A DNA stretch of 64,000 nt from Allorhodopirellula solitaria (lineage in GTDB: Bacteria; Planctomycetota; Planctomycetia; Pirellulales; Pirellulaceae), in NCBI RefSeq assembly GCF_007859855.1, contig NZ_SJPK01000001.1, positions 676,091-740,090 of the forward strand, written 5' to 3'. How positions within the stretch are numbered: the stretch's first letter is position 1; the number at the start of each line of letters is the position of its first letter. The notes under the pieces were generated by a model. It was not told the origin of the DNA, made no database searches, and saw only the letters and a program-made list of their open reading frames with translations. Below, one piece after another: positions 38,439-49,989 of the stretch. The position numbers and the translations under genes were made by a program.

Positions 38439-39461
38439 TCACTGAGCCTCAATTACTTCCTGGTTCATGCTGGTAAATTCTGCTGCCAAAACTTCGACAC
38501 TAATTTGTTCACTGGCAAACCGAACCGACCCGTCACAGAATAGCAAAAACGCACCGCCGGGATGCAGGCTGCGCGGCCCCGCGTTGGACTCTTCGGTGTT
38601 CTGCGAATGACATTCTAGGTTATTTCCGATCATTGACGTGCAGTAGGGAATCCAGTCCGAATGAGATTCGTCGTTGATCCCTCGGCACTGCTTGTCGCAA
38701 TCGAGCCCCACGCTCGACGCACCAGCGGCCGGGTGTGCCCAGACGCCGCGATTGTCGCCATAGTCGGCTTGCGTGCGAATTTCCGCGACCGCCACCGTCT
38801 GCGACGTTCCATCGCGGATGTCGGTGAGTCGCAAGCCAACGTTTTGCCCCATCACGCCGCGATACGCAGTGTCTTCCCAAAACCGCTGTCCCCAACTTGC
38901 ACTACCGAAGTTGGCAGCGTAATTGCTGCGTGAAAACCGGGCACCCGAGCGGGGCTCGAACAACACGTCGCCATTAGGATCACTCGGGCAGCGGTACGAG
39001 GCCACGCTGGTTTCGCGAAACTGTCGATTAGCGTCCGCTGTGGTGTCGAATCTCGCGTCGTACAAGTCATACAGCGGCCCCTGTTCGATCATCGGCAGGA
39101 TTGCGATCGCCCATGTCGCCCGAGGCCGATCCCTCGCGTTATCGACAAACCCCTGGGGCCGAATCGCCGCCGCGGGCAACCGTCCGAACGCACTGTGATA
39201 GTTCGCCAACGCCAGCCCGACTTGTTTCAGGTGATTCTGGCACTGCGTCTTGCGAGCCGCCTCCCGCACCGCTTGCACTGCAGGCAAACTGATCGCCAGC
39301 AAGATGCCGATGATCCCGATCACGACCAGGAGTTCGATCAGGGTAAAACCAAAACGCTGAACGACAGAAGAGGAAGGATATTTGTCAAATGATCTCTTGA
39401 AGGAGTCGGGCATCGGTAACACATCGGTACTATGGGGCTTTAAAACTGTAGGTAATTCCAT
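38439..39461 (-). CDS. DUF1559 pseudopilin-like protein, second copy
   Basis: 340 residues from the ATG at 39461 (a TTG at 39467 is the alternative). Prepilin-like leader QRFGFTLIELLVVIGIIGIL with a hydrophobic helix, then AVREAARKTQCQNHLKQVGLA and a closing LHPGGAFLLFCDGSVRF motif. It resembles the copy at 20631-21713 in architecture. It is part of the leftward operon, 32 bp after the HYGLPE protein, so a pseudopilin-type protein accompanies the cysteine-peptide system here. Confidence 0.92.
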   Translation of the reverse strand: MELPTVLKPHSTDVLPMPDSFKRSFDKYPSSSVVQRFGFTLIELLVVIGIIGILLAISLPAVQAVREAARKTQCQNHLKQVGLALANYHSAFGRLPAAAIRPQGFVDNARDRPRATWAIAILPMIEQGPLYDLYDARFDTTADANRQFRETSVASYRCPSDPNGDVLFEPRSGARFSRSNYAANFGSASWGQRFWEDTAYRGVMGQNVGLRLTDIRDGTSQTVAVAEIRTQADYGDNRGVWAHPAAGASSVGLDCDKQCRGINDESHSDWIPYCTSMIGNNLECHSQNTEESNAGPRSLHPGGAFLLFCDGSVRFASEQISVEVLAAEFTSMNQEVIEAQ

Positions 39462-39492
39462 CTTCAAGCCTGCCTAGCTTAAGATTGTGCGT

Positions 39493-40560
39493 TCAAGGCA
39501 AGTTTTTATAATTCTTAAGAATAAGTACAGCAGCACACGCTACAGCGAGGACACCACTCACCCAGAACAACCAGTTTGCGGTCCAGGCCCTTCCACCAGG
39601 CTCGGGCAGCCCATAATGCGATAGCGTAAATTCTTGGCGAGGTATTGCATCATAGTCGTAGCGTATTCTCCGCTCCATTTTATAGACCTTGTCAGCCGAA
39701 TCAGGTCGCTGAATCGTCAGCATGTGGATCTCATTCTTTCCGATAATCCTCTTGTCTGCAATTTGATAGTCGATGTCGGTTACTGCTTCATACTGCCCCG
39801 ATTCGTGAGCAAAGCTAACGAAAAGCTGTGTTGGTAGACACGTGTCTCTGTCAAGTCGCAGGACCGCTGCTACGTCCTCTGGAACTGTTATTTGGTTACC
39901 ACCCCGCCGAAAAGGCTTCAGCGGCAATTGAAAATCAAACTGCTTAGACGATTCATCTTCTTTATATCGCACTTTTGTCAAATGGTCGCCGTCAACTATG
40001 TCTCTAAGGTTTACCTTAAGCTTTAGATAGTAGGTGCGTACGACCTCGTGGCTATCAATATCTGGAGTTGCCTGTTTAAAAGAACCCAGATAGCCGATCT
40101 CTGCTAAATCGAAGTCGCCAGGGTCTTCGAGGTCGAGCTGCAGTCTATTTATGAGCCAGCGTTCGGGGGCTTTCGTGGCTGCCTTCAGCATGAACGCATA
40201 AGAGTCGTTTACGACGCTTACAGTTTGCTCGACTGATGATGCCGACCCAATCTGCGGCAAAACTTCGATCACGTGTCCTCCGTGCTCAAATCCCAATTTC
40301 TCGCGAACCATCACTTGAGAAAACGGTGCGCTGGAATTGAAGTATCGCGACTCATCCGTCGAGATCGTCACGTCCGGATAGCCGTTTCGTAATGCATCTG
40401 ACTGCAGGAACCGCTGTTGGATTTTGAGGCAAGCAACTGCCTGGCTTTGGACACGGCGGTCATCCTCCGACCCCAAAACCAGCGATCGGGGGTGCAATTG
40501 CCAGGCAAAAAACACGACAACAACTATTGAACGGCAAGTCTGTGCCTGAGGGACTAGCAT
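39493..40560 (-). CDS. HYGLPE-motif membrane protein A (exported, C-terminal helix)
   Basis: 355 residues from the ATG at 40560; a frame to 40632 is possible but adds a less signal-like start. A signal peptide (CRSIVVVVFFAWQLHP) precedes a large exported domain with alternating strands. Near the C-terminus come DYDAIPRQEFTLSHYGLPEP, then a membrane helix (VSGVLAVACAAVLIL) and a short cytoplasmic end. The protein at 46958-48247 ends in the same way (EFTLTHYGLPEV plus helix). I do not recognise the family. It is placed 360 bp after the cysteine-rich peptide gene, beyond a perfect hairpin. Confidence 0.7.
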   Translation of the reverse strand: MLVPQAQTCRSIVVVVFFAWQLHPRSLVLGSEDDRRVQSQAVACLKIQQRFLQSDALRNGYPDVTISTDESRYFNSSAPFSQVMVREKLGFEHGGHVIEVLPQIGSASSVEQTVSVVNDSYAFMLKAATKAPERWLINRLQLDLEDPGDFDLAEIGYLGSFKQATPDIDSHEVVRTYYLKLKVNLRDIVDGDHLTKVRYKEDESSKQFDFQLPLKPFRRGGNQITVPEDVAAVLRLDRDTCLPTQLFVSFAHESGQYEAVTDIDYQIADKRIIGKNEIHMLTIQRPDSADKVYKMERRIRYDYDAIPRQEFTLSHYGLPEPGGRAWTANWLFWVSGVLAVACAAVLILKNYKNLP

Positions 40561-40821
40561 GACACCACCATTAAGCCAAGACGAAACGTGGACAAATCCG
40601 AACCAAAACTGCGGCGAAAATGCAAATCTCAACCGCTGCGTAGCTATGGTATACTGAGCAACCGGTATCGCAATGACTCAATAAATCGGTGATCCAAGCT
40701 TCGAGCGGGAACCAAAGCATCACATCGGAACCAGCGTTGATCTCAAGTGAGTTGCACCATGTGACGCAGGAGTTTTCGCCAAGCATCATGTGAACAACTA
40801 CTGACGCATTCTTCTTCTATT

Positions 40822-40867
40822 ACAGGCTTTCAGCATGTCAATCCGACGCGACAGACTGAAAGCCTGT
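40822..40867 (-). promoter_or_regulatory. 12-bp perfect hairpin between peptide gene A and HYGLPE gene A
   Basis: ACAGGCTTTCAG (40822-40833) and CTGAAAGCCTGT (40856-40867) pair perfectly with a 22-nt loop, 55 bp after the peptide stop. No T run follows on the minus strand. It may stabilise or partly terminate the message so that the peptide is made in excess. A hairpin occupies the same place in the right arm. Confidence 0.65.
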
Positions 40868-40921
40868 CGTACTTGTTGTTCACGCGATGCTAAGCAGCGA
40901 ACGTAAGAGGTTCGATCCGGG

Positions 40922-41188
40922 TTAGTCGTCAACCGTTCCGCACTCACAACCACAGACATACTCACTAAATCCATCAGGATTTGTAATACGCACTTCTTTT
41001 GAGAAGCACCCGTCATAAACGAGGCCACCGGACTTGCAATCGCCTCCGCAAGCACAGCTATCTTCGTCGGGATCACCCGACGGATCGCACCTGTTTTCGA
41101 CTTCGTCCGATGCATGACAGATGGGCGGAAGAGTTCCACCGACCATTACCGTTACCAACCCCGCCATTAAGACATCTTTCAACTTCAC
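40922..41188 (-). CDS. Secreted 8-cysteine peptide A
   Basis: 88 residues from the GTG at 41188, chosen because GGAG lies nine bases upstream; a TTG at 41203 is the alternative. Residues 1-26 are a signal peptide ending ICHA. The predicted mature chain of 62 residues is acidic and has exactly eight cysteines (mature positions 8, 19, 21, 25, 35, 53, 55, 57), ending in a VCGCECG motif. I know no family. It lies between the DUF1573-like gene (35 bp before its start) and the HYGLPE gene, exactly as the other 8-cysteine peptide does in the right arm. Likely a disulfide-rich exported peptide; function unknown. Confidence 0.65.
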   Translation of the reverse strand: MKLKDVLMAGLVTVMVGGTLPPICHASDEVENRCDPSGDPDEDSCACGGDCKSGGLVYDGCFSKEVRITNPDGFSEYVCGCECGTVDD

Positions 41189-41223
41189 AACCAAACACTC
41201 CAACTCAATTAGATTCTCGAAAA

Positions 41224-41694
41224 CTAATGCGCGGGAAACGTTCCCACGACTTGAATCTTAACCGATATTTGCTCAGGGTGATCGAGGTAAAAATAAACTG
41301 GTTTAGTTGTCGACTCGAACGCTCGACCAATTTTTGATTTGAACGGAACGCACAGCACTTGCCCCGATGGAAGCTTTGCAGGCAACGCGATGCCGAGATG
41401 GCAGTTGCATTCAAGGCTGGAACCGATGATATTGATGTCCCGATTTGATGTGTTTCGCAACGTTACAGACAGGTCGGTCAGTTCTCCACTCGTTGCGGCT
41501 GTAAGATCGCTCGATGACGTGATTACTACAACAGGCTTTTGTAGAAACATGAAAGCACCTCCGACAGCACAGGTAATCGCTAGTGCCGCGAAAGCAAATA
41601 CGGTCCCGGTAGACAATCTGCAAGGCTTTTTCAATTTTGGCCAGTATGTAGGGTGTGAAGTTTTTACTGTTGCTGTCTTGAGAGGCACCCGCAT
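41224..41694 (-). CDS. Membrane-anchored DUF1573-like protein A
   Basis: 156 residues from the ATG at 41694, 11 bp after the MauE-thioredoxin stop; a longer frame runs into that gene. A short basic N-terminus, one transmembrane helix (VFAFAALAITCAVGGAFMF), then an Ig-like domain of DUF1573 type: SVTLRNTSNRDINIIGSSLE, CNCHLGIALPAKLPSGQ, VLCVPFKS. The CxC motif (ECNCH) stands where DUF1573 proteins usually have CGC. The protein at 46164-46637 has the same layout. The role of DUF1573 proteins is unknown; the CxC could be redox-active or bind metal. Its neighbours are the redox protein and the cysteine peptide. Confidence 0.72.
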   Translation of the reverse strand: MRVPLKTATVKTSHPTYWPKLKKPCRLSTGTVFAFAALAITCAVGGAFMFLQKPVVVITSSSDLTAATSGELTDLSVTLRNTSNRDINIIGSSLECNCHLGIALPAKLPSGQVLCVPFKSKIGRAFESTTKPVYFYLDHPEQISVKIQVVGTFPAH

Positions 41695-41705
41695 GATCGA
41701 TACTA

Positions 41706-42872
41706 TCACGCAGCGTAGTTGTTGATGTACTTTTGAATTAAATTTCTTTTCAGCGAGCGAACTGCTGGCGATACCTGCCATCGATAGTCTTGGTGATGAT
41801 CTGACACTCCCTGTACGCCGAAATTCTTAAGTGTCGGTTGAACATCAGTGACTATTCGATTTTTTAGAGCAACGACACGAGGCGAAGCGACGAACGGTTC
41901 GGTGTCTTTCCAAGTAATCACGGTGTCAGCCGATTTATTCGTTGGCACCGCCGCTATCAAATCGGGCATCACCGTCCAGCGACCGGGCGAAACTGAGATT
42001 CCGATGACCTTCGTCGTTGACCGTAATTCTTGCCGAGTAGTCGACCACTGCTCCACCAGTTCCCGGCAATGCTCGCAGTCAGGACGAAGCATGACAATCA
42101 ATACCTCGCCCTGCTCGGGAACGAGAGCAGCGAATCGCGGATCTGCAAGCAGCGGAAACTCCTTTCCGATCAAGTTTTCCCCGAACCATGAGGGCATCGC
42201 TTTTGCGGTGGCTTGATGATTGATATTCCACGCCGTGAAGCCACCGCTTAGTGCGGCCAGCATCGATCCGGCGACGAGTGATGCCCGCAACGACTGAAAG
42301 GCGGGCCCTGCGACCCTCGCTGACTTGCGTTGGCTCCGCACCGACCAAGCCACCAGCAGCAATGCCGCCGTGTCGATCAACAGCGGGACGCCCTTGGGTG
42401 TTTGCGGGCCGAAACAGCCACAATCTTGATCGGTCCACCACGCCCATGTGGCCACAAGCGTGAATACGGAGAACAAAACGAACGCAAACCGCTGAGCGAG
42501 CCTAACCGGGCCGATGGCGATGAAGGCGGCGGCAAACCATTCAAGGCCGACGGCCGATGCGATCGCGGCGGGCGAGCCCAACAAACCCCCGGAAGCGAGC
42601 AGTTCCGCTGAATGCGTCGCTTTCAGCACTCCGGTCACTAGAAGCAATGCAGCAAGGAGCATGCGGACGACCGGCCAAGGCTGCAGCGTTCCGTTTACCG
42701 CCTGCCAGAGACCAATCATGCGTTTGCACGGTCCATCGTCGGCGAGCTTGTCCGTGGTAGGCGACGCAATGACTCCTTCAGTTGTAGGATTCGTTGCCTC
42801 ATCCACGACGGCGGATTGATGAAAGCGATCCCGGTGCGCGATTCGGTCGTTTGCCGCTGCGATGTGGCTCAT
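41706..42872 (-). CDS. MauE/DoxX-type membrane protein fused to a thioredoxin domain
   Basis: 388 residues. The ATG at 42872 overlaps the upstream stop by four bases. Residues about 65-200 form a MauE-like four-helix membrane domain (VVRMLLAALLLVTGVLKATH, then SAVGLEWFAAAFIAIGPV, DQDCGCFGPQTPKG with its CGCFG motif). The C-terminal part, residues about 245-345, is thioredoxin-like: EVLIVMLRPDCEHCRELVEQ with a CEHC active site. MauE is known for maturation of disulfide-rich methylamine dehydrogenase, and this family is generally linked to thiol oxidation. Here it is well placed to oxidise the cysteine-rich peptides. This is inference from motifs and context. Confidence 0.82.
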   Translation of the reverse strand: MSHIAAANDRIAHRDRFHQSAVVDEATNPTTEGVIASPTTDKLADDGPCKRMIGLWQAVNGTLQPWPVVRMLLAALLLVTGVLKATHSAELLASGGLLGSPAAIASAVGLEWFAAAFIAIGPVRLAQRFAFVLFSVFTLVATWAWWTDQDCGCFGPQTPKGVPLLIDTAALLLVAWSVRSQRKSARVAGPAFQSLRASLVAGSMLAALSGGFTAWNINHQATAKAMPSWFGENLIGKEFPLLADPRFAALVPEQGEVLIVMLRPDCEHCRELVEQWSTTRQELRSTTKVIGISVSPGRWTVMPDLIAAVPTNKSADTVITWKDTEPFVASPRVVALKNRIVTDVQPTLKNFGVQGVSDHHQDYRWQVSPAVRSLKRNLIQKYINNYAA

Positions 42873-43717
42873 GCGTCTTCCGCCTTGGAGACATGGCCGA
42901 GGGCGTCCTGCAATTGACGCAGGTATCGTGGGATTTGCTTCACGCCGGTGCAGCGGTCGTCTGCCTCGCGCTCAAGGTACCTAAGCATGGCGTCAATAAT
43001 GGCGTCACCAAGTAAACGCGACAGCATTTCGGCACTCCCGTGAAGTTCCTCGAAGTCCTCTTCGCGAATCAGTCGATATCCGATGGGCGTCGGACCGGCA
43101 TGGACCACTGGGGAAACGATAACGCCGGTAAGAGACACCAGGCTGTTTGCTGAGTCGACCGGGGGATCGGGATCGTCAGTCTCGGGACCCGATTCCCTTC
43201 GTTTTTGCGCTTCGGCCAAGCGGTAGAACAACACGGCGGTCAACTCATGCTCGGATTCGATGGCGGCTTCGATGGCCGTACTGAAAATTCGATCGTCCAG
43301 GGACGCAATTTTCCGGCAGCGGGAAGCGAAGTCTTTCTTCAAATTGAGGTCCTCTAATTTCAAACTCGCAGCGTGCGAGTTTGATCTGCGGTCGCCGCCC
43401 CGCAGGTTCAACTCCCTGAGCAGAAGACCGATCTTCCGCATGATGCGAAGGCGCAGCGAGGCGGCCTCATTGAGCTTGGTCAATGAGGCGGAGGACTGCC
43501 GCAGCAAATCCTTCAAATAGGCGGCAGCGGGCAACCCGCGCTGCAGTTCATCGATATCGTCGCAATGATCGATCGCCACGCTCATCGCTTCGACTACCGC
43601 AATGGTGCAGTCGGTTGAGCCTCCCGACGCGACCGTCTGCTCCTCTGCCATCCGGTTGATGATCGCCAGTTTTCCTCCCGACACGGAATCGTCTGCTAAA
43701 ATTGCTGCGTCGTGCAT
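42869..43717 (-). CDS. Uncharacterised protein with a possible DNA-binding middle
   Basis: 282 residues from the ATG at 43717; the longer frame to 43789 would begin inside the promoter. A mid-section (ASLRLRIMRKIGLLLRELNL, GGDRRSN, LEDLNLKKDFASRCRKIASL, DDRIFSTAIEAAI) resembles the helix-rich block found in phage- and plasmid-type proteins that read GGDRRS...LEDLGISKRQSSRWQKIA. This suggests DNA binding but is a distant match. The C-terminal half is acidic. A 25-bp palindrome (43360-43384), also found twice in the adjacent intergenic DNA, is inside the coding sequence and encodes SNSHAASLKLE. First gene of the left operon, so possibly its regulator. Confidence 0.5.
   Translation of the reverse strand: MHDAAILADDSVSGGKLAIINRMAEEQTVASGGSTDCTIAVVEAMSVAIDHCDDIDELQRGLPAAAYLKDLLRQSSASLTKLNEAASLRLRIMRKIGLLLRELNLRGGDRRSNSHAASLKLEDLNLKKDFASRCRKIASLDDRIFSTAIEAAIESEHELTAVLFYRLAEAQKRRESGPETDDPDPPVDSANSLVSLTGVIVSPVVHAGPTPIGYRLIREEDFEELHGSAEMLSRLLGDAIIDAMLRYLEREADDRCTGVKQIPRYLRQLQDALGHVSKAEDA
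43360..43384. repeat. 25-bp palindrome, copy 1 (inside the coding sequence)
   Basis: TCAAACTCGCA, loop GCG, TGCGAGTTTGA. Identical in arms and loop to copy 2 at 44019-44043 and identical in arms to copy 3. Here it sits within the gene at 42869-43717, in frame. Confidence 0.85.
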
Positions 43718-43760
43718 GGAGTCGCCCCGCGGCCAATGAGAAAGATTTTTACATTGCCCT

Positions 43761-43789
43761 GTTATAGCGGTCTCGTGAGAAAAAGGCAA
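43761..43789 (-). promoter_or_regulatory. Sigma-70-like promoter for the left operon
   Basis: On the minus strand TTGCCT (43789-43784) and TATAAC (43766-43761) are exactly 17 bp apart, about 43 bp before the ATG at 43717. Good match to -35 and -10 consensus elements. It reads toward the 42869-43717 gene and all genes down to 35487, whose overlaps and short gaps support a single transcript. Confidence 0.6.
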
Positions 43790-43797
43790 GCATTTTC

Positions 43798-43808
43798 GGG
43801 GGGGGGGG
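43798..43808. repeat. G11 homopolymer tract beside the promoter
   Basis: Eleven consecutive G, starting nine bases upstream of the -35 element of the left-operon promoter and immediately before TTGACA on the plus strand. Such a tract can change length during replication. Confidence 0.8.
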
Positions 43809-44016
43809 TTGACAAGCGAATCGCCCTAGCGACGGCGCGTCGTGTCGTCACTCGCATCCGATCTCGACGCAGAATTTCGGCGAGCATGATCATGGGATGA
43901 AGGCAGTCTGTATCCAGGGAGTGGGATTCAATGGCGACAAGCCACCGGTCGATGGGCTGAGAGAATGCACGACATGACCGGCAAAACCGAGTGGTGCGAC
44001 CGAGATCGGAGCCGAT

Positions 44017-44043
44017 TTTCAAACTCGCAGCGTGCGAGTTTGA
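44017..44043. repeat. Palindrome copy 2, upstream of the 44111 gene
   Basis: TCAAACTCGCA (44019-44029), loop GCG, TGCGAGTTTGA (44033-44043); pairing extends two bases outward on each side. It ends 67 bp before the ATG of the PMT-like gene. From 43810 to 44110 I see no further gene. Confidence 0.85.
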
Positions 44044-44110
44044 AACTGCCTCTACCCGGCGTGGCGGTCGCGATCGACCATGGTTGATCCGGTGACGCTA
44101 AGCTTTGGCA

Positions 44111-45910
44111 ATGCGAAGAACGATCGACTTTCTTGGATACAGCGCGGTGAGGCCACTTGCCTTAGTGGCTCTTGGGTTAGCCGCACTGACCCTTTGGGGA
44201 CTCCAGGTGGTTCGCTCGGGATGGTGCAACGACGAAGCCGCACACATTCCCGCCGGGCTTTACCATCTCGAAACGGGCCGGATGGATGCCTACCGGGTCA
44301 ATCCGCCGTTGCCGCGAATGATCGCGGCGATTCCGCTGCTGCTGGACCGGCCCGAGATCGATTGGCATTACTCGGAGTCTCGCTACGTCCGAAACGAGTA
44401 TCAGTTCGCCCACCAGTGGGTGCGCGACAATCACGAGCATCTCCGCCGCTATCTGTTGTGGACACGCGGCACCATGGCGGGGTTCTTTTTGCTGGGGCTC
44501 TGGGTGGTCTCGAAATGGTCGAGTCAGCTTTATGGCGGATGTGCCGGCTGGGTCGCCGCGATGCTGTGGACCTTCAATCCGGACATCATTGCCAACTCAG
44601 CCGTCGTTGCGCCGGACCTGCCGGCGACGGCCAGCGGACTGCTCGCCGGCTACGTGTTCTGGAGTTGGCTGATCCAACGAGAGCGACCGTTTCCATGGGC
44701 TGTCGCCGCCGCGGTCGCCTTTGCGGTGCTTTGCAAGTTTTCGTGGTTGTTTCTGTTAGTGGGATTGCCGCTGCTCACCTTGGTCCACGACGCCTTCTTC
44801 AAACGTGAGTCAGCCGGTGAGCGGCTTCGATGGCTCGGCAGCGCTCCCATCGCGCGCCGGGTTGCTGTGGCAGCGTTTGATTCGCTTCGGCTCCTGCTCT
44901 CGTTTTCGCTGACGGTGCTGTTGATCAATTGGTGCTATGGCTTTGACGGCTCTGGGACGCGGCTGGGGCATTTTGAGTTCATTAGCGAGTCATTAAGCGG
45001 AAGGGATATCGTTTCCGGTCAAACGGCCAATCGATTCGCAGGCGGCTGGTTTGCTTGGGTTCCGGTTCCTTTGCCCGCGGAGATGGTTTATGGGCTGGAC
45101 TATTTAAAATGGGAATTCGAGCAAGGCATGCCCTGTTACCTTCGAGGCAAGTGGCAGCACGGTGGTTGGTGGTATTTCCATCTGTACGCGATGGCGGTGA
45201 AGATGCCGATTGGTTACTGGCTGTTGATCACGGCTGGACTGGGCAGCCTGGCTCTCGATTGGCTCCGCCGCGGGAAACGTTTTTCGCTGGAATGGCTACC
45301 GCTTTTGATCGCAATCGTCTTCGTCGCCTTGGTCAGCTTCCAGACAGGCTTCACGCACCACGTTCGCTACGTGCTTCCCGCGTACGGGTTTCTGTTCATC
45401 GTCGCATCGCGTGTGGCGGTAGTTTTGCCGGGGCGATTCGCGATCGGATTGGCAGCGATTTGCCTATCCGGCACGCTCTGGTTCCACGCGACGCACCTGG
45501 GACTGGCTCACACCTTTTTCAATCCATTGGCTGGCGGCCCGGACAACGGCTGGCGTCATCTTAGTCACAGCAACGTCGACTGGGGGCAGAGCACCTACCG
45601 GATGGTTGACTGGGTAAAGAAGCATCCTGAACAGCGACCGATGACGGTGCTGTTCCGTTCATCTCTGGGGAACCCCGAAGCGTTGCTAAAGGACGAACCC
45701 GACGTGTTCACGTCGGTGGGTTGGCATTATCCGCCGGGAATCCGCAATCCGGTGCCACGGCAACCCGGCTGGTACCTGATCTCTGGATTTCCGGTGACGC
45801 TGCAGAGCAATCGCTTCTTTTGGGACAAGACACCGGCTCAGCAGCCCGATCCAGACTCCCTGCTGTATCGCGTAGAGTCGACGCTGGACACGCCGCATTC
45901 GCAGGACTAG
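44111..45910 (+). CDS. PMT/ArnT-like integral membrane glycosyltransferase
   Basis: About 599 residues from the ATG at 44111; a TTG two codons earlier also fits. A first membrane helix is followed by the acidic external loop motif GWCNDEAAHIPAGLYHLETG, then NPPLPRMIAAIPLL, and about ten further hydrophobic segments. This order (D-E in the first loop, then NPPL) is typical of GT39/PMT-type enzymes that transfer sugars from a lipid carrier. The C-terminal quarter is soluble. The sugar and acceptor are unknown. It precedes the right arm by 250 bp that contains palindrome copy 3 and a promoter. Confidence 0.75.
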   Translation: MRRTIDFLGYSAVRPLALVALGLAALTLWGLQVVRSGWCNDEAAHIPAGLYHLETGRMDAYRVNPPLPRMIAAIPLLLDRPEIDWHYSESRYVRNEYQFAHQWVRDNHEHLRRYLLWTRGTMAGFFLLGLWVVSKWSSQLYGGCAGWVAAMLWTFNPDIIANSAVVAPDLPATASGLLAGYVFWSWLIQRERPFPWAVAAAVAFAVLCKFSWLFLLVGLPLLTLVHDAFFKRESAGERLRWLGSAPIARRVAVAAFDSLRLLLSFSLTVLLINWCYGFDGSGTRLGHFEFISESLSGRDIVSGQTANRFAGGWFAWVPVPLPAEMVYGLDYLKWEFEQGMPCYLRGKWQHGGWWYFHLYAMAVKMPIGYWLLITAGLGSLALDWLRRGKRFSLEWLPLLIAIVFVALVSFQTGFTHHVRYVLPAYGFLFIVASRVAVVLPGRFAIGLAAICLSGTLWFHATHLGLAHTFFNPLAGGPDNGWRHLSHSNVDWGQSTYRMVDWVKKHPEQRPMTVLFRSSLGNPEALLKDEPDVFTSVGWHYPPGIRNPVPRQPGWYLISGFPVTLQSNRFFWDKTPAQQPDPDSLLYRVESTLDTPHSQD

Positions 45911-45991
45911 AGCCCAACCGTCGCGCGCAACAACGCATTTTCCAGGCTTGAGGCGGACGGAGTCCGGTGACCCGGTGTGGCAACCATCAAG

Positions 45992-46018
45992 ATCAAACTC
46001 GCACGATGCGAGTTTGAT
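45992..46018. repeat. Palindrome copy 3, overlapping the right-arm promoter
   Basis: ATCAAACTCGCA, loop CGA, TGCGAGTTTGAT. The last bases of its right arm are the first bases of the -35 element TTGATT of the promoter at 46014-46042, so a protein bound here would compete with RNA polymerase. Confidence 0.85.
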
Positions 46019-46042
46019 TAAAGTCGATTGAATAAATATAAA
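46014..46042 (+). promoter_or_regulatory. Sigma-70-like promoter for the right-arm operon
   Basis: TTGATT (46014-46019) and TATAAA (46037-46042) with a 17-bp spacer, about 120 bp before the ATG at 46164. The -35 overlaps palindrome copy 3. Confidence 0.55.
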
Positions 46043-46163
46043 CGGTGGTACAGGCACGCATCGACATCTTGGTCGTTACGTACGTCGCGGAAGGTGAACG
46101 ATAGCTTTGCTGTGATGACGAAACATCGATCAATACCGAAGGCCCGATAAATGGAAGTTCAAA

Positions 46164-46637
46164 ATGCTAAATAGACGAGTTATCGATCGGGTATCTCAGG
46201 GGCTCAGAGCAGTCCTGAAGCATTCTTCACTTGCCGCCTTGTCATTTGCGTTTTCGGCATTGGCGGTGACCGCCGTTGCAGTATTTCGATACGGCTCCAT
46301 TTCGCAGGCCATTGAGAACGTCCGCGGTCCAGCCGTGCGGGTTTCAGATTCATCGATTGAACTCGGTCGTCTTACAGTCGGCAGACACAGGGCTAATGTG
46401 ACAATTGCAAACTCAACAGCAGAGCAAATTCAAGTGGTTGGCGGTCGTGGTAGTTGCCAATGCCTGTCTTTTCCAAAGCTGCCAGTATCTGTTCCCCCCG
46501 GCGAACGAACGGCGGTCCAACTGCTCGTTACCACCTATCCCTCAGGTGAAGGCCAGTCCCACGAGCACGAATTCGTGTTGTTTACAAATCATGTCGGTAG
46601 CGAACGCATCGGAGGCGACGTTCGTTGGCGGCAGTAA
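46164..46637 (+). CDS. Membrane-anchored DUF1573-like protein B
   Basis: 157 residues from an ATG with TGGAAG about nine bases upstream. A basic N-terminus, one transmembrane helix (SLAALSFAFSALAVTAVAVF), then an Ig-like domain: ANVTIANSTAEQIQVVGGRG, SCQCLSFPKLPVSVPPGER and TAVQLLVTTYPSGEG. It parallels protein A at 41224 in length, topology and CxC motif (SCQCL). The pairing with the cysteine peptide gene 34 bp downstream is the same as in the left arm. Confidence 0.75.
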   Translation: MLNRRVIDRVSQGLRAVLKHSSLAALSFAFSALAVTAVAVFRYGSISQAIENVRGPAVRVSDSSIELGRLTVGRHRANVTIANSTAEQIQVVGGRGSCQCLSFPKLPVSVPPGERTAVQLLVTTYPSGEGQSHEHEFVLFTNHVGSERIGGDVRWRQ

Positions 46638-46671
46638 CTCCAATTTCGCCTCCTTGTCGCAAGGTTGTCAC

Positions 46672-46875
46672 ATGTCAAAGTTGTTAATTCGCAGTGCAAA
46701 ATGTTCACTCGGCCTATCGATGACGCTATTGTTGCTCGGCGCATCGCTTGTCGTAACGTCTAAGCCAGCTTATGCCTACAATCCGCTTGATTGTTGGAAT
46801 CGACAGTGCCTCGACTGCACCTCGTGCGGTGATTGTTTTTGTACTTGGGGAGTCTTTGCCTGTGGATGCACCTGA
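46672..46875 (+). CDS. Secreted 8-cysteine peptide B
   Basis: 67 residues from the ATG at 46672, with AAGG about 9 bases upstream; an overlapping longer frame starting earlier lies in the previous gene and is not used. Residues 1-35 are a signal peptide ending PAYA. The predicted mature peptide is 32 residues and one quarter cysteine: positions 6, 11, 14, 17, 20, 22, 29 and 31, with two tryptophans and an ACGCT end. Peptide A also has eight cysteines and a CGC near its end, but the spacing differs. It resembles disulfide-rich toxins or metal-binding peptides in size, though I match it to no family. Confidence 0.7.
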   Translation: MSKLLIRSAKCSLGLSMTLLLLGASLVVTSKPAYAYNPLDCWNRQCLDCTSCGDCFCTWGVFACGCT

Positions 46876-46924
46876 TCTCCCGACCGCTCCCGTGCAGTGC
46901 TGACGGACCTCAGGCCAAGATTTT

Positions 46925-46957
46925 CGCAAGCTCAGGGCAGTTCGCCCTGAGCTTGCG
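46925..46957 (+). promoter_or_regulatory. 14-bp perfect hairpin after peptide gene B
   Basis: CGCAAGCTCAGGGC (46925-46938) pairs with GCCCTGAGCTTGCG (46944-46957), loop AGTTC, 49 bp after the peptide stop. No T run follows, so it is not a standard terminator. Equivalent in place to the left-arm hairpin. Confidence 0.7.
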
Positions 46958-48247
46958 GTGTCGATGCTTTTCAGCCAATCCAGGCTCTATCACATACATA
47001 TGATTGAATATATGCTTCCATCACTTAACGCACGGTGGCCGTTGAACATACGATCGTTCATCATTCAACGTCAACGCGAGAGCCGACGAGGCAACGTAGC
47101 GTCATGGGATGCGACTTGGGATCGAACCGGTCTGCCAGGTGGTTTACGTAGCCACCGGGCTCCCACCGGCGGTTCGACCCATCCGAGACATTTGTCGTGT
47201 TGGTTTGGTATCGCGATCGCCTGTTTTTTGGCGGTTGCGGCTCAGGAGAGTCTCGCCGACGACCCACTCGCCCGACTCCGCGAAGCAACCGCCACCGCCT
47301 GGTCGCAGGTCGCGGCCAGGACGGAGACGATGCGAGCCGAGGCAACTTCGATCAAAACCATCAACAGTGGGGGCAAGAAAACCGTTCTAACTCATGGACT
47401 GATCTACAAGCGAAAGGGCAGCCAACAATCGCTGGAAGTTCGAAACCTGACTGAAAACGGGGGCCACTCGGATCGTGTCTTTGCCATCAATCCGCGATAT
47501 GGCTTCCAGTTGACGTCGGCTTCCAATCAAGCATCAGCCGGTGGTTGGGTCATCCGCGATGCCGGCCCGAATTACGGCATCTCCGCAAATTTACCGGCGG
47601 TCATCGATGAGATGACGCACTCGGTGTTCTCAGTGCCAGGAAAAATCGCGACGCTACCGCTTGACATGCTCATCAATTCCGAGGGTCTGACACTAGTCCG
47701 TTCTACCAAAAAAAACGGAATGACAAATCGACCGGAAGCCCTTTTAGTCGAATTTGACTACACCCCTACGGCTGAAGACTTGAAACAATGGTCGGCCGAA
47801 GGATTCGGACAAGCGACTCCTCCGGCGATGAGCGGAACGATGACGCTGGTTCCAAATTGGCATTACGCGCTCGCAAATTACAGCGTCACCGCGCGACCCA
47901 ACGTCATCGGCCGGGGAAAATCGTCTCCGGTGCGGATCTCGGCATCGATCGATTACCGTAGCCGAAATATTGCGACGATCCCTTCACGCGTCGAACAAAC
48001 CATTTCAAGCGATGGTATGACGCGGGAGGTTAAGTGCGACATCGCCGAGGTGGCGTTTGACGGCGTCGACGATTCGGAGTTTACGTTGACGCACTATGGG
48101 CTTCCCGAGGTGGCCGTCGAGCCGGTCCGTCTGTCTACAGGTTGGAAGTTGATCCTCCTGTCCAATGCAATCCTTGCTATCGGCTTGTTGGTGTTGCTAT
48201 ACCACAGATTTTACGCGAAGAGCAAAGGCGGGCACTCTACAAACTAG
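46958..48247 (+). CDS. HYGLPE-motif membrane protein B (exported, C-terminal helix)
   Basis: Up to 429 residues; the first in-frame start is a GTG just after the hairpin, an ATG follows at 46964, and the true start may be up to 80 codons later because the sequence before the signal-like segment (WFGIAIACFLAVAAQESLA) has an odd composition. The mature domain includes LRSTKKNG-like strands and a DYTPTAEDLKQW loop. The end, DSEFTLTHYGLPEV, is followed by a membrane helix (LILLSNAILAIGLLVLLYH), as in protein A. Family unknown. Confidence 0.68.
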   Translation: MSMLFSQSRLYHIHMIEYMLPSLNARWPLNIRSFIIQRQRESRRGNVASWDATWDRTGLPGGLRSHRAPTGGSTHPRHLSCWFGIAIACFLAVAAQESLADDPLARLREATATAWSQVAARTETMRAEATSIKTINSGGKKTVLTHGLIYKRKGSQQSLEVRNLTENGGHSDRVFAINPRYGFQLTSASNQASAGGWVIRDAGPNYGISANLPAVIDEMTHSVFSVPGKIATLPLDMLINSEGLTLVRSTKKNGMTNRPEALLVEFDYTPTAEDLKQWSAEGFGQATPPAMSGTMTLVPNWHYALANYSVTARPNVIGRGKSSPVRISASIDYRSRNIATIPSRVEQTISSDGMTREVKCDIAEVAFDGVDDSEFTLTHYGLPEVAVEPVRLSTGWKLILLSNAILAIGLLVLLYHRFYAKSKGGHSTN

Positions 48248-48302: not shown

Positions 48303-49220
48303 ATGGCAAGTTCGGTGTCAGCCCTTCAATCCATCGAGTTGAGTAAACGATTCCGGTCGAATCTGGCACTCGATTCGGTGACGATCCGGATTGACCAAGG
48401 TAAGACAGTTGGCCTGCTGGGAATCAACGGGGCGGGAAAAAGCACGCTGTTGAAATTGGCGGTCGGTAACCTCCGCCCCTCCGGCGGGGAGCTGAAAATC
48501 CTGGGTCTCGATCCGCAAACGATGTCGCATGAGATACGCGCTCGGGTAGGGTTCGTCCCAGAGGCATCCCAGTTTTACAAGTGGATGACGGTCGGCCAAA
48601 TCCTGAATTTTGTCAGGCCGATGTATTCGGCGTGGGATGAACCGTTCGTTGGCCGGCTTTCGAATCGGTTCAACCTCGACCTTAAACGAAGGGTCTCACA
48701 TTTGTCATCCGGAATGCTCGCCAAACTGTCATTGTTGGTGGCGTTGGGTCATCAACCCGAATTGTTGATACTGGATGAACCGTTGACCGGAATGGATCCC
48801 CTCGCACGGCAGGATTTCACGGAGTGCGTCGCCGAATCGGTTTTTCGAGACTCACAAACCGTACTTTTTTCCAGTCATCAACTCGATGAGGTGAGCGAAC
48901 TTGCAGACGAGGTTATTATCATCCACGAGGGCAGAGTTCTCGTTCATCGGGCTGTGGCGGACCTAGTCAATACCACACGCCGCATCAGGGTGATCGGAGA
49001 AAACCTGGGGTCTATCCCTATTCAGGCCGACCACGTGGTGTGTCGACGCAAGGTGCAATCGGATTGGATCATCACGGTTTCAGATTTCGATCCGGCCATC
49101 GTTGCCTCCATGGCCGAAGACGGCCGCCATCGGGTGAGCGATGTGTCGACGGTGTCGCTAAGCGAGTTGTTCAAGGACTACGTTCGCGGGGTCAGTCCAT
49201 CGGAGGGTTCGGGGAAATGA
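48303..49220 (+). CDS. ABC-2-type exporter ATP-binding subunit
   Basis: 305 residues. Walker A GINGAGKSTLL, ABC signature LSSGMLAKLSLL (LSSGM in place of LSGGQ), Walker B LLILDEPLTGMDPLA and the switch His region SSHQLDEVSELADEV. This is a transporter ATPase of the drug/antibiotic export class. Its permease follows at 49228. In the right arm only; probably exports a product of the cluster or acts in envelope assembly. Confidence 0.88.
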   Translation: MASSVSALQSIELSKRFRSNLALDSVTIRIDQGKTVGLLGINGAGKSTLLKLAVGNLRPSGGELKILGLDPQTMSHEIRARVGFVPEASQFYKWMTVGQILNFVRPMYSAWDEPFVGRLSNRFNLDLKRRVSHLSSGMLAKLSLLVALGHQPELLILDEPLTGMDPLARQDFTECVAESVFRDSQTVLFSSHQLDEVSELADEVIIIHEGRVLVHRAVADLVNTTRRIRVIGENLGSIPIQADHVVCRRKVQSDWIITVSDFDPAIVASMAEDGRHRVSDVSTVSLSELFKDYVRGVSPSEGSGK

Positions 49221-49227
49221 GTCGAAA

Positions 49228-49989
49228 ATGAGTCGATCAAATAGAGTTGGACGGGGTCATTCAAGTTCGAAGGGGATGAAGGTTGCGGTACGCACCCTGG
49301 TTTCGTTGACCAAAAAGGACTTCCGTGTCAGTTCATTTCCCATCGCCTTGCTCGTCGTTGGGGTCGTCGCGTCGTATGCGTTGGCTTTCGCTGTGTTCTC
49401 AGATGAGAACCTGCGGGGCTCGCAACCCGAAGCCTCAGGGGCTTCGGTGGCGATGGTTGCGGGCGGGTATTTTTCCATGTTCATGGCGTTGCCCATGTTG
49501 GCGGTCCTTTCCGGGACCATCATGGCCGGTGAACGAGCCGATGAATCAATTCGTTTTCTGTCGATCCTTCCGCCGACCCGTACCCAGATCTTCGCGAGCA
49601 AACTGGTGGTGATGATCGGCGTAACATTTGTCTTGGGATGGATCGTTCTCTCCACCATTGCGGCGGGACACTTCATGGGACGCGGCTCGCAGTTGCCCTC
49701 TGAAGTCGCCGAACGATTCCCCTCACTTCTGTGGTTCGCCGCCGCCGCATTCCTTACGATCGCTACCGGCTATTCGATTTCGTTCTTTTCGACCAGTTCG
49801 GGCGTGTGCACGCTGGCCGCGTTCATCATCCCGGTTGGGATGCAGGTGGCGATCGCTTTTGCGCAGCGCAAATCTTCGTCGCTGTACGAAATTGATTCGG
49901 TTCACCTCTATTCCGGTGTTTCGATCGCCACGGGGCTGATCATGATCGTGTCGAGCTGGGTGTGTTTCCGCAGTCGCGAAATACTTTGA
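49228..49989 (+). CDS. ABC-2-type transporter permease
   Basis: 253 residues, start ATG at 49228 (an internal ATG at 49276 is possible), 7 bp after the ATPase gene. About six hydrophobic segments (PIALLVVGVVASYALAFAVF, MFMALPMLAVLSGTIMAG, VVMIGVTFVLGWIVLST and more) and the ABC-2 marker GERADESIRFLSILPPTRTQ between helices 2 and 3. It forms the channel for the neighbouring ATPase; the substrate is unknown. Confidence 0.8.
   Translation: MSRSNRVGRGHSSSKGMKVAVRTLVSLTKKDFRVSSFPIALLVVGVVASYALAFAVFSDENLRGSQPEASGASVAMVAGGYFSMFMALPMLAVLSGTIMAGERADESIRFLSILPPTRTQIFASKLVVMIGVTFVLGWIVLSTIAAGHFMGRGSQLPSEVAERFPSLLWFAAAAFLTIATGYSISFFSTSSGVCTLAAFIIPVGMQVAIAFAQRKSSSLYEIDSVHLYSGVSIATGLIMIVSSWVCFRSREIL

Follow-up and report, generated by a model that had tools for sequence, protein, structure and literature searches.

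The stretch of DNA analyzed here, a window of 64,000 nucleotides from the planctomycete Allorhodopirellula solitaria (contig NZ_SJPK01000001.1, positions 676,091 to 740,090 of the forward strand), carries two gene sets in opposite orientation on either side of 44 kb. Each encodes a membrane-anchored DUF1573-like protein with a CxC motif, a small secreted cysteine-rich peptide, and a membrane protein that ends with the motif HYGLPE and a transmembrane (TM) helix, referred to below as the HYGLPE protein. A preliminary description of the window had proposed a duplicated module, built around a shared redox protein and an exporter, that makes, oxidizes, and displays or exports disulfide-rich peptides. 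In this article, the gene set is compared with related loci in other planctomycetes, and its composition, together with the fast change of the peptide, points to a possible role in recognition or conflict at the cell surface.

Organization of the locus

All the genes named in the mirrored arrangement are present (Table 1). The left arm, on the minus strand, runs from a MauE-thioredoxin-like gene through the DUF1573-like gene, the peptide gene, a hairpin, and the HYGLPE gene to a DUF1559 prepilin-like gene, and the right arm, on the plus strand, from the DUF1573-like gene through the peptide gene, a hairpin, and the HYGLPE gene to an ABC ATPase and an ABC permease. Only the left arm has a MauE-thioredoxin-like gene, a detail in which the locus differs from the preliminary description. 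The two arm peptides, each with 8 cysteines after the signal peptide (counted by eye from the translations), are the only open reading frames (ORFs) of the window that pass a filter for signal-peptide-bearing peptides with at least 5 cysteines.

Table 1. Features of the two arms and their neighbors, in window coordinates.
Feature	Position	Strand	Basis or remark
DUF1559 / H-X9-DG prepilin-like gene, directly 3' of left HYGLPE gene	38439..39467	-	TIGR04294 above cut-off
HYGLPE protein, left arm: signal-peptide-like N terminus, ectodomain, LSHYGLPEP, C-terminal TM helix, basic tail	39493..40632	-	
Hairpin in peptide-HYGLPE gap, left arm	40822..40867	-	fold of 40790-40905, z -3.26
Cysteine-rich secreted peptide, left arm: 8 Cys in mature part, C-terminal CGCEC	40922..41203	-	
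DUF1573-like membrane-anchored protein, left arm, CxC = ECNC	41224..41781	-	profile of MauE-DUF1573 fusions, E 5e-19
MauE and thioredoxin-like fusion with CGCFG and CEHC	41706..42872	-	PF07291 above cut-off; weak PDI/thioredoxin signals
306-aa ORF between the arms	42869-43789		without Pfam match; contains one palindrome copy
DUF1573-like membrane-anchored protein, right arm, CxC = SCQC	46164..46637	+	same fusion profile, E 1e-24
Cysteine-rich secreted peptide, right arm: 67 aa, 8 Cys, C-terminal end CFCTWGVFACGCT	46672..46875	+	
Hairpin in peptide-HYGLPE gap, right arm, 15-bp stem	46924..46958	+	fold of 46880-46960, z -2.68
HYGLPE protein, right arm	46958..48247	+	
ABC ATPase	48303-49220	+	PF00005 above cut-off
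ABC permease	49228-49989	+	3' neighbor of ATPase

Several start codons in the ORF list may need revision. The true start of the left HYGLPE gene may be internal to its ORF, the left peptide is listed with a TTG start and may begin later, and the internal ATG coding MRVPLK is probably the true start of the left DUF1573-like protein. Since the GTG start of the right HYGLPE gene overlaps the hairpin, translation more likely begins at an in-frame ATG near 47 kb. The GC content of the peptide, HYGLPE, and DUF1573-like genes is 47-50% in the left arm and 49-55% in the right arm, that of the window being 57%. The second ORF between the arms encodes a PMT_2-like protein that stays under the Pfam cut-off (18.1 versus 26.1 bits).

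Relationship between the two arms

A HYGLPE profile built without the window proteins recovers both of them from among the window ORFs (right, E 3.7e-30; left, E 4.3e-24) and no third ORF up to E 10, although its members had originally been collected with profiles that included the window proteins. Direct comparison of the arms gives 70 identical residues of 313 aligned for the HYGLPE proteins, 38 of 142 for the DUF1573-like proteins, and 18 of 61 for the peptides, and blastn between the arms finds only short palindromes between the gene sets and weak matches of 33 and 14 nucleotides. With protein identity this low and DNA similarity nearly absent, the arrangement is not a fresh inverted duplication. 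The arms are two distant members of one family, and the duplicated module of the preliminary description stands in that sense and not as a recent event.

A near-perfect palindrome, CAAACTCGCA-NNN-TGCGAGTTTG, lies at 43361-43383, 44020-44042, and 45994-46016. With up to 3 mismatches allowed it occurs exactly 3 times in the 6.8 Mb genome, always between the gene sets, and its exact form was found among 161 compared loci (designated by L numbers) only in L009 and L119, which are both the same place in the window's own genome. It may serve a regulator or act in recombination.

Recurrence of the gene set in Planctomycetota

Searches with single proteins in 149 genomes of the family gave matches in 3 and 4 genomes, the source genome counted, and several of these loci carry cysteine-rich secreted ORFs upstream of the HYGLPE relative. 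Profile alignments extended this considerably: the first (A1) matched at least 38 of 241 family genomes when the best 8 candidates per genome were scored, and the second (A2) at least 13 of 392 phylum genomes, the source genome again counted, when the best 5 were scored. The 12 other listed genomes of the window's genus gave no HYGLPE match with A1 among the best 8 candidates per genome. A scan with one motif across one genome for each of 84,980 species returned 58 stretches, 18 of which encode a HYGLPE relative, and the record titles of all 18 name planctomycetes or planctomycete genera. In total, 83 HYGLPE ORFs were collected in 61 loci, a count that includes fragments and one duplicate place (L059 is L074).

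The association with a peptide gene was assessed with a filter requiring 40-150 aa, a basic N terminus, a hydrophobic stretch, and at least 5 later cysteines, within 700 nt upstream, which misses some real cases. Such a peptide precedes 32 of 72 testable HYGLPE genes versus 2 of 211 other ORFs of at least 200 aa from those loci, and random windows pass in 44 of 3000 cases (Fisher p 6e-20 for the HYGLPE enrichment). The association is also seen in loci that were unseen when the filter was designed (25/61 versus 2/139) and in the phylum loci (5/26 versus 0/107), and at least one peptide-HYGLPE pair is found in 31 of 68 loci; owing to tandem genes and related genomes, these counts are not independent. 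Among 68 HYGLPE genes with 1300 nt of upstream sequence, 28 have both a peptide and a MauE/DUF1573-type gene, 5 the peptide only, 16 the MauE/DUF1573-type gene only, and 19 neither. The set of DUF1573-like, peptide, and HYGLPE genes thus recurs in other planctomycetes, the two HYGLPE proteins fall into one profile family, and structure models of modest confidence give both a LolA/LolB-type top match, so that chance resemblance of the arms, the outcome that would have undone the preliminary description, was not observed.

The hairpins reported for both arms are borne out by folding (Table 1). Across loci, a stem of at least 10 bp occurs in 12 of 32 peptide-HYGLPE gaps versus 51 of 320 control windows (p 0.006), the left-arm gap reaching 9 bp under this stricter count. 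DUF1559-type genes lie within 6.5 kb of HYGLPE in 29 of 54 loci, versus about 10% expected from their density of 7.9 per Mb. The ABC exporter next to the right arm is not a recurrent part of the module: at E 1e-8, the ORFs of the compared loci outside the window include a single distant relative of the ATPase (26% identity, L021) and no match to the permease.

Probable redox partners MauE and DUF1573

The left-arm fusion was described as MauE plus thioredoxin, of which the MauE part, containing CGCFG, passes the Pfam cut-off (PF07291, E 2.7e-11, 44.3 versus 27 bits), and the thioredoxin-like character of the CEHC region is weakly supported (PF00085, E 0.057, below cut-off). Neither DUF1573-like protein reaches the Pfam cut-off for PF07610, the left one giving no match and the right one 12.5 versus 26.1 bits. 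Both join one profile with MauE-DUF1573 fusions, of whose four seeds they are two, and the label "DUF1573-like" is retained because this profile holds proteins above the cut-off.

In 18 of 54 loci, an ORF with the MauE motif is found upstream of HYGLPE on the same strand, no more than 3.5 kb away, and in 12 of these it is fused to a CxC-bearing DUF1573-like domain. Both Pfam cut-offs are passed in L062, L064, and L067, that of MauE only in L092, and neither in L094. MauE is otherwise rare, at 0.64 per Mb (54 matches in 13 genomes, about 84 Mb, module copies counted). The left-arm order is repeated in L025, where a MauE protein with a CSKC region is followed by the DUF1573-like, peptide, HYGLPE, Lnt-like, and DUF1559 genes. 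DUF1573 with the motif UGC is listed in published selenoprotein tables (PMC9312934, PMC13188914), which is in keeping with a redox role. Separately, a HYGLPE locus, L107, encodes at 53-1759 a C39-peptidase-like domain (below cut-off) fused to DUF1573.

The HYGLPE protein family

The membrane protein ending in HYGLPE and a helix, described for both arms, has no database family in either of them. The two HYGLPE proteins of the window have no Pfam match and no NCBIfam match near the cut-off, and no Pfam model covers HYGLPE in 21 members of A2, nor any NCBIfam model in the three proteins scanned. The core motif, a TM helix, and a basic tail are found in 94 of 108 HYGLPE ORFs, with a median of 11 from motif to helix. 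PEP-CTERM proteins, the exosortase substrates, have a short C-terminal motif, a TM helix, and a basic tail and are cut by a sorting enzyme; for HYGLPE, no sortase was recognized by eye among the recurring neighbor clusters, and the genome was not searched for exosortase.

Structure models of both ectodomains, of modest confidence, have a LolA/LolB-type chain as top match, and such chains recur among the best matches, so that a LolA/LolB-like ectodomain, possibly with the half-barrel fold of that superfamily, is predicted. The best structural matches belong to the LolA / LolB / LprG / RseB-MucB superfamily. The HYGLPE proteins differ from it in having a C-terminal membrane anchor, the HYGLPEP motif, and a diversifying ectodomain, and in the absence of a LolA-family sequence match for the two window proteins (Pfam, NCBIfam), the 21 A2 members (Pfam), and the A2 profile (PDB sequences).

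Fusions inform the topology. In L150, HYGLPE is joined to DUF1573 with no membrane segment between them, which indicates that both should lie on the same, outer, side, and in L022 HYGLPE and its membrane helix are fused to a DUF1559 prepilin that has an N-terminal signal of its own, an architecture that would fit a cytoplasmic C terminus for HYGLPE.

Other arrangements were also noted. In L147-L152, from one genus (f4, g73), HYGLPE genes, some in tandem, lack a recognizable cysteine peptide and are followed by or fused to DUF1573, and L155 holds a single peptide gene ahead of a row of four HYGLPE ORFs whose C-terminal tails are almost the same. Apolipoprotein N-acyltransferase-like genes lie 3' of HYGLPE genes on the same strand in L074 (4243-5835), L023 (6179-7774), L025 (8079-9881), L056 (284-1939), L086 (377-1753), L077 (7018-8394), and L066 (8409-9344). 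CN_hydrolase was found in four of four scanned, and two of two scanned are below the lnt cut-off. These neighbors are a second lipoprotein-trafficking flavor beside the LolA-like fold.

Cysteine framework and hypervariability of the peptides

The properties of the mature peptides were examined in 38 peptide-HYGLPE pairs, three peptides having been added by hand and the cleavage sites guessed. The cysteine count after the guessed site is even in 36 of 38, with 10 or 8 commonest; the odd counts are those of L077 and the left window peptide, for which the guess is probably off by one cysteine. In 33 of 38 peptides, including both window ones, a CxC falls within the C-terminal 16 residues (500 shuffles: mean 10.3, maximum 19). 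Cysteine makes up 15.5% of the mature peptides, whose mean net charge is -2.1 (range -12 to +5).

The sharpest view of peptide change comes from L080 and L082, from two genomes that belong to the same genus. Across the stretch from MauE to the end of HYGLPE, most 60-base windows show 97-100% identity, and the mature-peptide segment falls to 53-73% in three windows, with shoulders of 88-92%. This drop extends from about the signal cleavage site to slightly beyond the stop codon. Identity also dips elsewhere, to a lesser degree (88%, and 85-93% toward the far end), and is 89% across 5.2 kb of downstream flank. For HYGLPE, dS is 0.038 and dN 0.020; for the mature peptide, dS is 0.275 and dN 0.446. 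That dS is raised along with dN suggests recombinational import of a divergent allele through conserved flanks rather than point mutation alone.

Similar patterns are found elsewhere. In L062, there is one synonymous change across the leader coding stretches, the mature parts are unlike, and one peptide is apparently truncated. Among the four tandem units of L079, five of six pairs have leaders 96-100% and C-tails 84-92% identical, with mature peptides at 29-32% and ectodomains at 21-26%; in the sixth pair the values are 95% (leader), 92% (C-tail), 84% (mature peptide), and 89% (ectodomain). In L156 and L157, from two genomes with flanks about 92% identical, identity breaks inside the peptide and HYGLPE region. 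In L079 the ectodomains are alike where the cysteine framework is alike, and those of L080 and L082 are about 95% identical, the framework of their peptides being kept and the loops different. In these few close pairs, the ectodomain therefore seems to follow the framework and not the loops, and HYGLPE is preferred as a carrier, holder, or protector that reads the scaffold, the loops being directed outward.

Proposed function and alternative explanations

The sequences compared show directly which genes make up the set and in what order, how some of them are fused, that cysteine counts are even, that hypervariability is confined to one segment, and that tandem copies have diversified. The explanation proposed for these observations, which we regard as an even call, is a planctomycete module in which a Sec-exported disulfide miniprotein is oxidized by MauE/DUF1573 and handled by a cognate LolA-like HYGLPE partner, with a role in recognition or conflict. 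The exported miniprotein would be locked by disulfides on a conserved cysteine scaffold carrying loops that change quickly. A dedicated thiol-oxidation unit would be formed by MauE, within the membrane, and the CxC domain of DUF1573, outside it, sometimes with a thioredoxin-like domain; we infer that this unit closes the peptide disulfides (usually 3 to 7), electrons passing into the membrane. HYGLPE, as a type-I membrane protein with a LolA/LolB-like ectodomain, would recognize and bind the peptide scaffold as carrier, holder, or protector, and the variable loops would face a quickly changing external partner, such as rival strains, kin, or phages. The making, oxidizing, and handling of a disulfide peptide, as earlier proposed, thus agree with the co-occurring genes, the ABC exporter being unsupported as a part. 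The more specific proposal of a variable-loop miniprotein system, whose scaffold presents swapped or diversified loops, with MauE-DUF1573 as folding machine and the scaffold-reading LolA-like protein as partner in strain recognition or antagonism, is tenable but falls somewhat short of an even call; its loops could be likened, by analogy, to those of venom peptides or self-recognition ligands. To the preliminary description this comparison adds three kinds of fused protein, MauE-DUF1573, HYGLPE-DUF1573, and HYGLPE-DUF1559, and the hypervariability of the mature peptide.

Killing would be the function if the genes were toxin-immunity pairs, the peptide being a bacteriocin-like weapon, HYGLPE its membrane-anchored immunity protein, and HYGLPE genes lacking a peptide orphan immunity genes. 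The fast peptide change, the tandem units, the array of L155, the patchy detection within the family and genus, and the enriched hairpin between peptide and partner all accord with this possibility, which we nevertheless consider doubtful. Class II bacteriocins have cationic mature peptides; the peptides studied here are on average net acidic, unlike typical cationic pore formers. Moreover, no bacteriocin or defense family was matched among the window proteins scanned, and the peptide of L080/L082 changed while its HYGLPE partner did not.

An unlikely explanation is that the peptide forms part of surface fibers or of the protein-rich cell envelope, cross-linked there by disulfides and assembled with DUF1559 pseudopilins on HYGLPE as an assembly anchor, its variation being escape from phages or grazers. 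The excess of DUF1559-type genes near HYGLPE and the HYGLPE-DUF1559 fusion of L022 favor it, as do the cysteine-rich YTV proteins known in planctomycete cell walls and those genes of Tuwongella immobilis that carry both an N_methyl and an SBP_bac_10 domain, which often have signal-peptide genes at their flanks (PMC8567305). A core wall part is nevertheless improbable, given that the peptides are short and hypervariable and that 203 of 241 family genomes have no HYGLPE match among the best 8 candidates per genome.

Metal or thiol buffering, in which the peptide would bind copper or zinc or relay electrons and HYGLPE would be a docking protein, could draw on the CxC tails and the high cysteine content. 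It is very unlikely, since a conserved function of this kind would leave the confined hypervariability unexplained and the even cysteine counts and the MauE neighbor point to disulfides; no metal-transport family was recognized by eye among the recurring neighbor clusters. Chance resemblance of unrelated genes, for which the very low single-sequence similarity and the lack of a database family for either HYGLPE protein might speak, is scarcely credible in view of the leave-window-out profile, the control counts, and the fusions.

If the proposed module is real, planctomycetes, bacteria with unusual envelopes, would gain a diversifying extracellular peptide module of which no account was found, and the poorly understood redox domains MauE and DUF1573 would be tied to one substrate. 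The fusions predict that DUF1573 is an extracytoplasmic thiol-disulfide domain acting with MauE and that HYGLPE proteins bind disulfide peptides. A constant cysteine scaffold with varying loops would also be a natural scaffold for stable binders.

Comparison with known systems

Small, exported, cysteine-rich peptides with redox genes nearby are known as the NVEALA type in Bacteroides. The small exported subunit of methylamine dehydrogenase is rich in disulfides. A Pfam scan of ten window proteins identified no methylamine dehydrogenase subunit among them. The module resembles the MauE/MauD maturation of that enzyme in that a small exported protein is served by MauE in the membrane together with a thioredoxin-like partner, and a role of MauE in disulfide formation in the beta-subunit has been speculated (PMC7794033); it differs in that its substrate would be a hypervariable peptide rather than an enzyme subunit, and in that MauE is often fused to DUF1573.

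The preliminary description knew of no system with this gene set, and literature searches likewise gave no account of it. The nearest relatives are candidate families of ribosomally synthesized and post-translationally modified peptides (RiPPs) that decRiPPter identified in Streptomyces, in which a MauE homologue, for which the authors suggest a role in precursor modification, lies next to a predicted precursor containing 8 or more cysteines (PMC7794033). In common with these MauE/MauD candidates, both window peptides have 8 cysteines and the left arm has MauE. The decRiPPter families are candidates only, from Streptomyces, with no HYGLPE-like or DUF1573 partner named in the available part of that source, whereas the planctomycete loci combine Sec-like leaders, CxC ends in most peptides, and a recurring membrane-anchored partner.

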